Shown: one piece after another, positions 2-9,186 of the stretch
Position numbering within the stretch: the stretch's first letter is position 1
Layout of the letters: every line of letters starts with the position of its first letter
Assembly: GCA_020723935.1 (NCBI GenBank)
Contig: DYHY01000027.1
Span: 1 to 9,896 of the forward strand
Source: Candidatus Micrarchaeum sp.
GTDB taxonomy: Archaea > SpSt-1190 > DYHY01
Reading direction: 5' to 3'
DNA length: 9,896 nucleotides
Notes under the pieces: model-generated
Database searches by the model: none
Told to the model about the DNA's origin: nothing
Seen by the model: only the letters and a program-made list of their open reading frames with translations
Translations under genes and position numbers: made by a program

Positions 2-1186
2 GTCATCCTCGCGCCGACGGGCGAGAAGTTCCCCCAGATTGACGAGGTCGCCTTCAGGGCCGGCGGCAAGCTCCTCAAAATCCCCTGGGGGGAGGTCAAC
101 CGCTTCGACAAGAGGATAACCCTGGGGATAGGGAAGGCGGCCGTCAGCGCCTCGCATGTGAAATCGACCGACATCCTCCTCGCAAAGGACCTCCTGGACA
201 AGCAGATAGTTGACATCGACGGCCTGAAGGTCGTGCGCGTGAACGACGTCGTGCTGGGCGAGGCGAACAACAAGTTCTGCGTCGTGAGCATAGACGTGGG
301 GACGCGCGGGCTCCTGCGGCGCCTCGGGATGGAATGGCTGTCTAGCCGCATCGGCGGGAGGGAGAAGCTCGTCCCCTGGGCGCTCGTCGAGCCGCTCCAG
401 TCCAGGGTCGGGAAGATCAAGCTCAACGTCTCGCGCCACAGGCTCTCGGACCTGCACCCCGCCGACATCGCGAGCGTCATGACGGAGCTCTCACAGTACG
501 AGCGCGAGAGCGTCATGAAGAACCTGGATTCCGAGAAGATAGCCGAGATCCTCACGAAGCTGGACCAGCGGGCGAGGGTGGCCTTCTTCAGCGAGATGGC
601 AGACTCGAAGGCCGCCGAGATATTCCAGAAGATCTCCCCGGACGAGGCGGCCGACCTCCTTGCGGTGATAGCCCCGGAGCGCGTGACGACGATAATAGGC
701 CTGATGGAGGACGACGTCGCCCTCAACATCATGGAGCTCCTGAGATACAAGGACAGGTCGGTGGGGAGCATCATGACGACGGACTACTTCACGGTGCGCC
801 CCGAGACGAGGGTGCGCCAGGCGATAGCCCTCCTCAGGAAGCGGCCCGACGCCAAAGTCTTCTCCCACGTCTTCGTCGCCGACGGCCAGGGCAGGCTCAA
901 GGGCGCCGTGTCGCTGCGCCTCCTCCTCCTCGCCAAGCCCTCGGAGACGATGGACCGGCTCCTCTTCTCCTCGTCCAACAAGCGGATAATCAAGATCCAC
1001 CGGCACGTGAACAAGGCCAAGGCCGCCTCGCTCATGGCCAAGTACGACCTCGTCACCCTCCCGGTCGTGGATTCCAAGGGCAGGCTCAAGGGCGTCGTCG
1101 TCGCGGACGACGCGATAAACGCCGTCCTCCCGCCGAAGGTGGCGATCAAAATACCGCACTTCTTCCCCGAGGGGGGCGCGAGGTAG
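2..1186 (+). CDS. PRC-barrel / MgtE N-terminal / CBS-pair protein, 5'-partial; probable Mg2+ sensor
   Basis: The frame is open to the left edge, so the true start lies upstream; 394 residues are visible. Visible residues 1-45 look like the end of one PRC-barrel-like domain, and about 60-110 like a second. HPADI at 152-156 opens an MgtE_N superhelical domain (to about 247). A first CBS motif begins near 254 (VGSIMTTDYFTV) and a second covers about 330-375 (YDLVTLPVVDSKGRLKGVV). No membrane segment follows, so the MgtE channel domain is absent. In MgtE channels, the N and CBS domains are the cytosolic Mg2+ sensor that gates the pore. The inference is that this soluble sensor acts on the transporter encoded 9 bases downstream in the same operon. 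A GTG at 158 is an internal valine, because the protein-like sequence continues upstream of it. Domain calls are firm; the regulatory role is inferred. Confidence 0.9.
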   Translation, partial: VILAPTGEKFPQIDEVAFRAGGKLLKIPWGEVNRFDKRITLGIGKAAVSASHVKSTDILLAKDLLDKQIVDIDGLKVVRVNDVVLGEANNKFCVVSIDVGTRGLLRRLGMEWLSSRIGGREKLVPWALVEPLQSRVGKIKLNVSRHRLSDLHPADIASVMTELSQYERESVMKNLDSEKIAEILTKLDQRARVAFFSEMADSKAAEIFQKISPDEAADLLAVIAPERVTTIIGLMEDDVALNIMELLRYKDRSVGSIMTTDYFTVRPETRVRQAIALLRKRPDAKVFSHVFVADGQGRLKGAVSLRLLLLAKPSETMDRLLFSSSNKRIIKIHRHVNKAKAASLMAKYDLVTLPVVDSKGRLKGVVVADDAINAVLPPKVAIKIPHFFPEGGAR

Positions 1187-1195
1187 GCGGACCGG

Positions 1196-2467
1196 ATGGC
1201 GGGAATCAACCTCAAGAGCCGCCTGAAAAGCATAATGATATTCCTCGCGATAGTGGGCCCGGGGATAATCACGGCGAACGCCGACAATGACGCGGGCGGG
1301 ATAGCCACCTTTTCCCTCGCCGGCTCGCGCTTCGGCTATTCGCTCCTCTGGAGCCTAGTGCCGATAACAATCTCCCTCATAGTCATCCAGGAGATGGCCG
1401 CGCGCATGGGCGCGGTGACGGGCAAGGGCCTCGCCGACCTCATCAGGGAGGAGTTCGGAGTGAAGACGATCTTCTTCATAATGACCCTCCTCGTGATAGC
1501 CAACGCCGGGACGACCGCGGCCGAGTTCGCGGGGATAGCGGCGGCCGGCGAGATCCTGGGCGTGAGCAAGTACATAGCGGTGCCGATCGGCGCGATACTC
1601 GTCTGGCTTCTCGTCGTCAAGGGCACATACAGGATAGTCGAGAAGATATTCTTCGTCTCGATAGCGTTCTACGGCTCCTACATCCTCTCGGCCCTTATGA
1701 TACCGGGCCTCGACTGGGGCAAGGCCGTCGCCGCCCTCGCAGTCCCTTCATTCCAGATGAGCGCGCCCTACGTGATACTCCTGATAGCGCTGATAGGGAC
1801 CAACATCACGCCCTGGATGCAGTTCTACCTCCAGTCGTCCGTCGCCGAGAAGGGCATCAAGGCCAGGGACTACAAGTATTCCAAGTGGGACGTGATCGTC
1901 GGATGCATAACGACCGACGTGATATCCTTCTTCGTGATAGTCGCGACGGCAGCCACCCTCTTCAAGGCGGGGATAATCGTCGAGAACGCGGGGGATGCGG
2001 CGGTGGCCCTCGCGCCCCTCGCGGGGAAGTACGCGACGACCCTCTTCTCCTTCGGCCTCCTCAACGCGGCGCTCCTCGGCGCGACGATCCTCCCCCTGAC
2101 GACGGCGTACCACGTCTGCGAGGGCCTCGGGTGGGACGCTGGCCTGGACAAGAAGCTCAAGGACGCCCCGCAGTTCTACGCGCTCTTCACCGCGACCCTC
2201 CTCTTCGGGGTCGCGGTCGTCCTCATCCCCGGCGCGCCGCTCATGAGGATAATGTTCTTCTCCCAGGTGCTCAACGGCGTCCTCCTCCCGTTCATACTCT
2301 ACTTCATGCTGCGCCTGATAAACGACAAGGCGATAATGGGCAAGTACGTGAACGGCGCGATCTTCAACGCCGTCGCGTGGGGGACTGCCGTCTGCCTGAT
2401 AATCCTAACGACCGCCATGGTCGTCCTTACCATCTGGCCCGGCGCCCTTTCCGTTGTCGGCCTTTGA
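1196..2467 (+). CDS. NRAMP-superfamily divalent metal transporter, probably the Mg2+-type (NRMT-like) branch
   Basis: The 423-residue protein is almost entirely hydrophobic with about 11 membrane helices, the usual length for NRAMP/SLC11 proteins. Conserved blocks include GPG at 21-23, the QEMAARMG..TGKGLADL stretch at 65-82 and GATILPLTTAYHVCEGLG at 295-312. The helix-1 metal motif, DPGN in classical NRAMPs, reads DAGG at 32-35, so the Asp is kept and the Asn is lost. In helix 6 the usual A-x-x-M-P-H reads T-N-I-T-P-W at 202-207, so the coordinating Met and the His are absent. Loss of that Met is known for NRAMP-related magnesium transporters (NRMT), which take hard ions such as Mg2+. With the MgtE-type sensor gene 9 bases upstream, Mg2+ (perhaps Mn2+) uptake is inferred. 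The ATG at 1196 follows GGCGG closely. The last 63 bases overlap the convergent GIY-YIG gene. Confidence 0.9.
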   Translation: MAGINLKSRLKSIMIFLAIVGPGIITANADNDAGGIATFSLAGSRFGYSLLWSLVPITISLIVIQEMAARMGAVTGKGLADLIREEFGVKTIFFIMTLLVIANAGTTAAEFAGIAAAGEILGVSKYIAVPIGAILVWLLVVKGTYRIVEKIFFVSIAFYGSYILSALMIPGLDWGKAVAALAVPSFQMSAPYVILLIALIGTNITPWMQFYLQSSVAEKGIKARDYKYSKWDVIVGCITTDVISFFVIVATAATLFKAGIIVENAGDAAVALAPLAGKYATTLFSFGLLNAALLGATILPLTTAYHVCEGLGWDAGLDKKLKDAPQFYALFTATLLFGVAVVLIPGAPLMRIMFFSQVLNGVLLPFILYFMLRLINDKAIMGKYVNGAIFNAVAWGTAVCLIILTTAMVVLTIWPGALSVVGL

Positions 2468-3827: not shown

Positions 3828-5279
3828 ATGGACGAACATCAATCCGAGAATCACGAACACCACGAGCACCATGAACACCACGAACATCATGAGCACTCTT
3901 CCGAGCACCACGAGCAATCAGAGCACCACGAGCACCGCGCCGGAGAAGGAAGGAAGAAGGAAGAGCTTGAGCCTGTGGAGAAGTTCTCGGACCTGAAGGT
4001 GCGGCCCGAGACTCTCCAGGCGATACAAGCCCTCGGCTTCGAGAAGCCCTTCCCGATACAGGCCAAGGCCCTCCCTTACGCGCTCGCGGGGCGAGACATC
4101 GTCGCCCAGGCGCAGACGGGCACCGGGAAGACGGCGGTTTTCGGGATACCGATAGTGGAGAAGGTGGGCCCCTTCACCAAGGACCTCCAGGCGCTCGTGA
4201 TAGTCCCGACGAGGGAGCTCGCCATGCAGGTCGCCGAGGAGATAAAGAGCTACACGTTCGACCCGGTGAGGATAGCGCCCATCTACGGCGGCGTCTCCAT
4301 TGAAAACCAGATCAACGACCTGCGGCAGGGCCTCCAGGTGGTCGTCGGGACCCCGGGCAGGCTCCTGGATCACCTCGAGAGGAGGACGATCGACTTCTCC
4401 AAGGTGAGGATGCTCGTCCTGGACGAGGTGGACAGGATGCTGGACATGGGGTTCATCGAGGACATTGAGCGCCTCGTCTCCCGCGTCCCGCGCCAGAGGC
4501 ACACGATGCTCTTCTCCGCGACGATCCCCGCCAAGATACGCGAGCTCGCCCAGAAGTACCTGCACGACCCGGCCGACGTCTCTGTGAGGATCGGGACCCT
4601 GGCCGCCGAGAAGGTCAAGCAGTACTACGTCGACGTCAAGGAGTGGAACAAGTTCGTGACGCTGCGCGAGATACTGGCGACGCAGCCGATCGGGACGCTC
4701 ATGATCTTCTGCAGGACGAAGGCGAAGGCGCACCGCGTGGGGGCGAACCTCCAGCGCGCCGGCTTCAGCGCTCTGAGCATCCACGGCGACCTCACCCAGG
4801 CGCAGAGGACCCACGCCCTGACGCAGTTCCGCGAGGGGAAGCTGCAGATACTAGTCGCGACCGACGTTGCGGCGAGGGGCCTGGACATCGAGGGCGTCAC
4901 GCACGTCATGAACTACGACCTCCCCGACGACCTCGACTCCTACGTCCACAGGATAGGGAGGACTGCGCGCGCGGGGAAGGAGGGCGTGTCAATATCGTTC
5001 ATAACCCACGAGGACCACCAGATCTTCAGGAAGGTTATGGACCTCATGGGGGGCACGATCGAGAAGATGGACGTGACCCTCCCGCTCGGGGTCGGCGAGC
5101 GGCCGCCCGCGGGATGGAAGGAGGAGAGGCCCCCGCGGGGGCGGGGCGGCGCAGGCCGCGGAAGGTCCTTCGGCGGCGGAAGGGGGGGCGGGGGCCGGGG
5201 CGGCAGGAGAGGCCCCCCGCGCAGAGGAAGGAGGCCTGGCAGCGGTGGCGGCGGGCAGTCGCACCATTCTTCGCCCTAG
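3828..5279 (+). CDS. DEAD-box ATP-dependent RNA helicase with His-rich N-terminus and RGG-type tail
   Basis: The 483-residue protein carries the full DEAD-box core: Q motif (F53...Q78), Walker A AQTGTGKT 95-102, PTRELA 127-132, TPGR 175-178, motif II as DEVD 199-202, SAT 230-232, HGD 319-321, ARGLDI 349-354 and HRIGRTAR 374-381. It should unwind or remodel RNA using ATP, for example in ribosome assembly or mRNA turnover. Motif II has Val where DEAD has Ala; the Walker-B Asp and Glu are intact, so activity is expected. Residues 1-36 contain 16 histidines in an H-E-H-H pattern, which is not part of the helicase fold and could bind Ni2+, Zn2+ or Cu2+. Residues 431-483 are rich in Arg and Gly (RGRGG, GRGGGGRGG), like RNA-binding tails of other DEAD-box proteins. 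Transcription is probably monocistronic. Confidence 0.95.
   Translation: MDEHQSENHEHHEHHEHHEHHEHSSEHHEQSEHHEHRAGEGRKKEELEPVEKFSDLKVRPETLQAIQALGFEKPFPIQAKALPYALAGRDIVAQAQTGTGKTAVFGIPIVEKVGPFTKDLQALVIVPTRELAMQVAEEIKSYTFDPVRIAPIYGGVSIENQINDLRQGLQVVVGTPGRLLDHLERRTIDFSKVRMLVLDEVDRMLDMGFIEDIERLVSRVPRQRHTMLFSATIPAKIRELAQKYLHDPADVSVRIGTLAAEKVKQYYVDVKEWNKFVTLREILATQPIGTLMIFCRTKAKAHRVGANLQRAGFSALSIHGDLTQAQRTHALTQFREGKLQILVATDVAARGLDIEGVTHVMNYDLPDDLDSYVHRIGRTARAGKEGVSISFITHEDHQIFRKVMDLMGGTIEKMDVTLPLGVGERPPAGWKEERPPRGRGGAGRGRSFGGGRGGGGRGGRRGPPRRGRRPGSGGGGQSHHSSP
3856..3935 (+). repeat. Low-complexity CAC/GAG-type repeat encoding the His-Glu tract
   Basis: An imperfect 9-base unit of the form GAACACCAC / GAGCACCAT / GAACATCAT is repeated in frame and encodes E-H-H triplets at about residues 10-23, then again less regularly to residue 36. 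Synonymous variation between units (GAA/GAG, CAC/CAT) shows selection on protein sequence rather than a very fresh DNA slippage event. Confidence 0.6.
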
Positions 5280-8246: not shown

Positions 8247-9080
8247 ATGCGCACACGGGACCTGTTCTCCACCCAATCCGCCGCATGCCTCGTCCTGTTG
8301 CTCCTGACAGCCCTCGCGATCCTCTCCTGCCCTGCCTTCTCGGCGCTCCCGCCCGTCCCGCAGGTCTCCTCCTACGTGACGGACACGGCAGGGGTTCTCT
8401 CGCCCGAGGGGAAGGCGGGCTTCGAGAGGTCCCTACGCGCCCTCCAGTCGGAGACGGCGGGCGTCCAGTTCATCGTCTACGTCGAGCCCCTTTACCCCAA
8501 GGAATACTCGCTTGAGGAATACGCTCTCAAGATTGCGGAGGGCGCAAAGCTTGGGGCGCAGGGCAAGGACAACGGCCTCCTCCTTTACGTGGCGGTGCAG
8601 GACGGTGCCTACCGCTGGGAGGCGGGCTACGGGGTCGAGAGCGCCCTGCCAGCGCCGCTCCTGGGCCGCATCTCGCGCCAGTACCTGGTGCCCAACTTCA
8701 GGAACGGCGACTACGAGGCCGGGATCTCCGAGGCTGTGCGCGTCGCAAGCCTCCTCATGAAGAACTCCACTGACCCGGACATCGCGGCCCTGCGCGAAGC
8801 ATCTTCCGCCGAAAATGCGGACCCGGCCTCGGTCCTGGTGATATCAGCCTTCTTCATCGTGATCCTCCTCTTCATCGTCGCCTCCGTCGTCTCGGCCGCG
8901 CGCGCCGCCAAGTCGGGCAGGGCATCTTCAGGGAGCGACCATTTCTTCAGGTCGGCCGCGACTGGGATATTCCTCGGCGGGATGAGGGGCGGATTTTCCG
9001 GCGGAGGCGGCTCCTTCGGCGGCGGATTTTCCGGCGGAGGCGGCTCCTTCGGCGGCGGAGGCTTCTCTGGAAAATGGTGA
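8247..9080 (+). CDS. TPM-domain (YgcG-like) membrane protein with Gly-rich C-terminus
   Basis: The 277-residue protein starts with a signal-peptide-like hydrophobic segment (about 12-33). A TPM domain follows (about 43-172), recognisable from VTDTAGVLSPE at 44-54 and the DNGLLLYVAVQDGAYRWEAGYGVE region at 108-131. A second membrane helix covers about 195-215, followed by a short cytoplasmic linker and a Gly/Ser/Phe-rich tail ending FSGKW. This is the standard layout of bacterial and archaeal YgcG-type proteins, in which the TPM domain sits outside the membrane. TPM domains are linked to membrane-protein maintenance (Psb32-type) and some have phosphatase activity; the role here is unknown. A GGGGAG sequence precedes the ATG by six bases. 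It probably shares a transcript with the upstream single-pass protein. Confidence 0.9.
   Translation: MRTRDLFSTQSAACLVLLLLTALAILSCPAFSALPPVPQVSSYVTDTAGVLSPEGKAGFERSLRALQSETAGVQFIVYVEPLYPKEYSLEEYALKIAEGAKLGAQGKDNGLLLYVAVQDGAYRWEAGYGVESALPAPLLGRISRQYLVPNFRNGDYEAGISEAVRVASLLMKNSTDPDIAALREASSAENADPASVLVISAFFIVILLFIVASVVSAARAAKSGRASSGSDHFFRSAATGIFLGGMRGGFSGGGGSFGGGFSGGGGSFGGGGFSGKW
8991..9056 (+). repeat. 33-bp tandem repeat (2 copies) in the Gly-rich tail of the TPM gene
   Basis: Two consecutive 33-base copies (8991-9023 and 9024-9056) begin GGATTTTCCGGCGG and each encode 11 residues of the form GFSGGGGSFGG. A shortened third unit leads into the stop. The copies look identical at the DNA level, so this is a recent in-frame expansion of the low-complexity tail. 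Confidence 0.8.
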
Positions 9081-9186
9081 TTGCGGGCCGAACGCGCTCT
9101 GCGGAGCGGGGAGGCTTCTCTGGAAAATGGTGATTGCGGGCCGAACGCGCTCTGCGGAGCGGGGAGGCTTCTCTGGAAAATGGTGA
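9058..9186 (+). repeat. 53-bp tandem direct repeat spanning the TPM stop codon (2.4 copies)
   Basis: Units start at 9058, 9111 and 9164 with GAGGCTTCTCTGG; the first two are complete and identical, and the third is 23 bases long, ending at 9186. Each copy contains the last codons and stop of the TPM gene (GGAAAATGGTGA) and, in another frame, an ATG-GTG start. Each full unit also ends with GGGG, so that GGGGAGG forms a ribosome-site-like sequence before the next copy. The period is not a multiple of three, so the copies cannot extend the TPM protein and instead move the downstream start. Confidence 0.9.

Follow-up and report, generated by a model that had tools for sequence, protein, structure and literature searches.

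The window, the whole of a 9,896-base contig (G000:C5) from an archaeal assembly of 1.14 Mb that is 91% complete, opens with two genes on the same strand (Table 1). Because the window begins at base 1 of the contig, the first ORF is truncated at its 5′ end; 394 amino acids of its product, hereafter the sensor, are present, and it ends with a TAG stop codon at 1184–1186. The transporter ORF starts 9 bases further on, so that the direct succession of the two genes claimed in the original prediction is borne out.

Table 1. Coordinates of the sensor and transporter genes and their features within the window
Feature	Positions	Strand	Basis and remarks
Sensor-like protein (PRC + MgtE_N + CBS pair), P0001	2..1186	+	ORF list, Pfam; 5′ end cut by contig edge
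First PRC-like beta domain, C-terminal part	2..157	+	Inferred; beta strands in model, complete homologues
PRC barrel	179..409	+	Pfam PF05239; most conserved motif of family
MgtE_N domain	452..754	+	Pfam; E182, D214, D218 = MgtE E59, D91, D95
CBS pair	761..1129	+	Pfam; D349, D370 = MgtE D226, D247; MgtE D250 changed to N373
NRMT-type transporter, NRAMP fold, 423 aa, P0002	1196..2467	+	Pfam, tree, model
TM1 metal-site motif D32-A-G-G35 (NRMT DxxG)	1289..1300	+	Sequence, alignment
TM6 metal-site motif T202-N-I-T205-P-W207 (NRMT TxxA/T; Trp for proton-pathway His)	1799..1816	+	Sequence; PMC8806188

Pfam analysis of the sensor ORF identified a PRC domain (2e-7, residues 60–136), an MgtE_N domain (1e-19, residues 151–251) and CBS domains (2e-17, two stretches, from residue 254), and the MgtE channel domain (PF01769) was absent. 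This is the channel-less architecture originally predicted. Sensor residues 140–374 align with MgtE over its cytosolic domain (E = 1e-31). The sensor and the transporter were modelled separately, and the best structural match of the sensor model is 2yvy, the Mg2+-bound MgtE cytosolic domain (TM-score 0.84 by target length). When complete homologues were aligned, the piece missing from the sensor fell at the beginning of a PRC-like beta domain that precedes the PRC barrel. The full-length protein therefore probably contains two PRC-like domains, of which the first has to be counted as putative, since Pfam reports only one.

We compared the sensor site by site with Thermus thermophilus MgtE (2yvy/2yvx), whose numbering was fixed by the agreement of all 15 site residues checked. 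The cytosolic Mg2+-site residues were taken from published mutants (PMC5882242) and six ATP-contact residues from PMC5529423. The two proteins share the fold of the MgtE_N domain and CBS pair, and five of the six cytosolic Mg2+-site residues are kept in the sensor (Table 1); the sixth, D250, is replaced by an asparagine. Of the ATP contacts, the sensor retains Arg187 and Asn203, has an isoleucine for Val207, which makes a main-chain contact, and differs at Tyr170, Asp188 and Phe227. With several of these residues altered, it is doubtful that the sensor would bind ATP in the manner of MgtE. In contrast to MgtE, the sensor has PRC barrels in front and no channel; its chain ends shortly after the second CBS domain, and hence the plug helix and the pore sites are also absent.

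Within the sensor family, conservation is highest in the PRC barrel. An alignment of 21 members has 23 columns conserved at a level of at least 95%, and 11 of these fall within this barrel, which accounts for 77 of the 394 residues (hypergeometric p = 0.0015). The conserved motif consists of D66-x-Q68-x-x-D71-x-x-G74, R79-x-N81-D82, R106-R107-x-G109 and W126. Judged from this pattern of conservation, the barrel is likely to serve as a docking surface.

The second gene encodes a transporter of the NRAMP fold (Pfam Nramp, 1e-97). In a search of solved structures, its best relative was EleNRMT (7qia, E = 1.8e-109), while classical NRAMPs scored 1.7e-28 or weaker. An AlphaFold model of the transporter (pLDDT 91.5, pTM 0.90) was matched to EleNRMT (7qji/7qia) with a VIA Z of 57 and an rmsd of 1.8 over 394 residues at 46% identity; the next-best NRAMP structure gave a Z of 50 at 23% identity. 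The residues singled out in the original prediction are all in the sequence: Asp32 is kept, the classical DPGN motif is replaced by DAGG, and the classical A/C-x-x-M-P-H motif (given there as A-x-x-M-P-H) by T-x-x-T-P-W. The canonical metal-site residues are thus indeed missing, but this is no oddity of the protein, as D32-A-G-G35 and T202-N-I-T205 agree with DxxG-TxxA/T, the signature of the NRMT clade (Ramanadane et al., 2022, PMC8806188). Also retained are Asp at the binding site, Glu in TM3 and Gln in TM10, and the first TM6 His is a Trp, as it is in EleNRMT.

A maximum-likelihood tree of 46 rows, including five classical NRAMPs, led to the same assignment. The transporter was split from the classical NRAMPs at 100/100 and was grouped with EleNRMT in a clade supported at 88/83. 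Tree, motif and structure together rule out that it is a classical Mn/Fe NRAMP. As a rule, such proteins (classical NRAMP/MntH, for example DraNramp and ScaDMT) couple transport to protons and select transition metals; they share with the transporter the LeuT-type fold and the binding-site Asp, but differ from it in both motifs, are only about 20–25% identical to it and form a separate clade.

Within the tree, the transporter is sister to a Woesearchaeota NRMT (100/96), and the surrounding sequences are mostly bacterial. No match to the transporter was found in nine other sampled members of the host's class. This absence and the mostly bacterial surroundings fit a horizontal acquisition of the transporter by the host. 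Elsewhere in the tree, L028 and L039 form a tight pair of transporters, from G015, a genome of the same domain, and from a Micrarchaeota genome. Two further archaeal transporters on the NRMT side (L037 and L038, from G052 and G010) have a hybrid metal site, with DAGS in TM1 and A-V-I-M-P-W in TM6, in which the Met is present and the His is changed to Trp; no adjoining sensor gene was found for either, and their genomes have an MgtE channel.

We then compared 21 named loci whose transporters are 46–58% identical to that of the window. The sensor gene lies directly upstream of the transporter gene in 13 of these. All eight loci without it are acidobacterial (L005–L008, L010, L011, L013 and L018), and two of them are near-duplicates; evidently, an NRMT can function without an adjoining sensor, since these related transporters have none beside them. 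The sensor-less acidobacterial clade has NDPGG in TM1, whereas its sister, L009, has the sensor gene; this is a natural loss that could reveal what the sensor does. Pairing is strict in the Woesearchaeota order that we sampled (79 genomes): a close NRMT is present in 10 genomes and is adjoined by a sensor gene in each of them, whereas none of three classical-type NRAMPs has one. The pair was also found on plasmids of Alicyclobacillus, Citrobacter and Rhodococcus, where it is annotated as a "CBS domain-containing protein" together with an Nramp-type or divalent metal cation transporter; its order is reversed in the Citrobacter plasmid. The pair thus recurs in many relatives, and neither of the two outcomes named as refuting the original prediction, a place among the classical NRAMPs or a lack of recurrence, was observed. 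Sensor and transporter distances are correlated (r = 0.73 over 16 pairs, 0 of 5000 permutations), as is expected for genes that travel together, and shared descent alone also predicts such a correlation.

The pairing itself was known before. In bacteria, according to Shin et al. (2014, PMC4072509), most NrmT neighborhoods encode the N-terminal cytoplasmic domain of MgtE; these authors suggested, but did not demonstrate, that this protein regulates transport by feedback or acts as a chaperone. Hence the idea behind the original prediction is a rediscovery: the observation was correct and is in line with a published hypothesis. Like the known NRMT/NrmT proteins (EleNRMT and Clostridium acetobutylicum Ca_c0685), the window transporter has the characteristic sequence, predicted fold and DxxG-TxxA/T signature, has lost the proton-pathway His, and has an MgtE-like gene as its neighbor, as most NrmT loci do. 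It differs in having an archaeal host and, at the Met position, a Thr instead of an Ala, which is an allowed variant. Acidobacterium capsulatum Acp2976/Acp2977, compared by published description, shows the same gene order, MgtE-like and then NrmT, but was reported to be mainly a Mn2+ transporter (PMC4072509). Our literature search found no paper beyond Shin et al. (2014) and Ramanadane et al. (2022) that joins NRMT, MgtE and Nramp, and none that joins Woesearchaeota with a magnesium transporter. Three points are new here: the pair occurs in an archaeon and has close relatives in other archaea; the sensor has been compared with MgtE residue by residue; and its PRC barrel, a domain that goes unmentioned in Shin et al. 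(2014, PMC4072509), is conserved. A pair described in bacteria is thereby extended, with clear recurrence, to small-genome archaea, and the PRC barrel offers a part that can be tested in the partner protein, for which a role was first proposed in 2014. Because that idea had already been published, the advance would become more than incremental only if gating were shown.

We consider it reasonably probable that the two genes constitute an uptake unit of the NRMT kind for divalent cations, most likely Mg2+, in which the transporter is held down by a soluble sensor. The transporter, uncoupled from protons, would let Mg2+, and probably Mn2+ too, flow down the electrochemical gradient. Its upstream partner would correspond to the part of MgtE that senses Mg2+ in the cytosol, here a soluble protein in which the channel is replaced by PRC barrels. 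At high cytosolic Mg2+, the ion would bind to acidic residues in the MgtE_N and CBS domains, which would be drawn together as they are in MgtE; the closed sensor may then dock on the transporter from the cytosolic side, perhaps via the conserved PRC barrel, and hold uptake down. At low Mg2+, the sensor would be released.

The sensor may nevertheless not gate the transporter at all, but serve to buffer metal, assist in assembly or regulate some other target, its adjacency reflecting a shared pathway; we regard this as improbable. Co-expression of the MgtE-like partner in the A. capsulatum system gave no better rescue by NrmT (PMC4072509), which weighs against the regulatory part of the original prediction, and several of our observations point the same way: there are related transporters without an adjoining partner, in L053 and L056 the partner gene follows the transporter gene, and conservation peaks in the PRC barrel and not in the metal-site domains. 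On the other hand, the strict pairing in the Woesearchaeota order and the retention of the MgtE Mg2+-site acidic residues argue against this alternative.

The nature of the cargo is a separate matter. The paired NrmT of A. capsulatum fully rescued a Mn2+-uptake mutant, while its rescue of a Mg2+ mutant required Mg2+ in the low millimolar range (PMC4072509), EleNRMT transports both Mn2+ and Mg2+ (PMC8806188), and acidobacterial NRMTs are placed close to the window transporter in our tree. Moreover, no classical NRAMP was found in the host genome, which might therefore need a Mn2+ route, though a ZIP-family gene that is present could serve. The unit could accordingly be mainly an importer of Mn2+, or a broad divalent one, with the MgtE-like protein responding to Mn2+ or to the overall divalent load, but we think this rather unlikely. 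Thr202, whose EleNRMT counterpart is needed for Mg2+ transport (PMC8806188), is present in the window transporter, and genomes G049, G116 and G121 each encode a close NRMT alongside an NRAMP of the classical type, suggesting that the two carry different cargo. A further pointer to Mg2+ comes from Mg2+-sensing M-box riboswitches, which precede the pair in L017 and L019, both from Eremiobacterota, and in an Alicyclobacillus locus (L055); the transporter of the latter belongs to the same supported 15-row clade as that of the window (95/87). In the NrmT operons of Shin et al. (2014), an M-box accompanies only a subset of members. None was found in nine archaeal upstream stretches or in L023, and none lies within the window, whose contig starts inside the sensor gene and so lacks the region upstream of the pair. 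For the split Mg2+ homeostasis system that had been predicted, the retained MgtE Mg2+-site residues and the three M-boxes fit a role in Mg2+ homeostasis; the mainly Mn2+-transporting A. capsulatum NrmT speaks against it.

The inventory of the host genome bears on the same question. At 91% completeness, CorA, the MgtE channel, CNNM and an Mg-type P-ATPase (MgtA) were not detected; of its P-type ATPases, the two that are full-length score as a copper and a calcium type, and two more matches are fragmentary. CorA is present in all nine other sampled members of the host's class, but the contrast, CorA absent with NRMT present, rests on a single genome (n = 1, p = 0.1). In the Woesearchaeota order, CorA was found in 6 of the 10 genomes with a close NRMT versus 40 of the 69 others (p = 1), which rules out replacement of CorA by NRMT as a general rule. 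Because CorA loss does not track NRMT there, the absence of other Mg2+ transporters from the host is only suggestive of Mg2+ as the cargo. A bolder version of the proposed unit, in which NRMT and its separate PRC/MgtE-type sensor are the host's only dedicated Mg2+ entry, CorA having been displaced after transfer from bacteria, and the PRC barrel does the gating, is in our judgment possible but speculative. If true, it would amount to a two-protein version of MgtE self-gating on an unrelated transporter fold.

The remainder of the window encodes several other proteins. A GIY-YIG endonuclease ORF (2408–2944, − strand) overlaps with its 3′ end the end of the transporter gene on the opposite strand. 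The DEAD-box RNA helicase ORF at 3828–5279 contains a 9/27-base repeat (3852–3936) that gives rise to a His-Glu-rich N terminus (HEHHEHHEHHEH...). AN1 and TPD family proteins are also encoded; together with the L028/L039 pairing in the tree, they make it probable that the host is an archaeon. Finally, a 53-base tandem repeat of 2.5 copies (9052–9186, 98% identity) runs across the 3′ end of a TPM-domain ORF and duplicates the start of the ORF that follows it.
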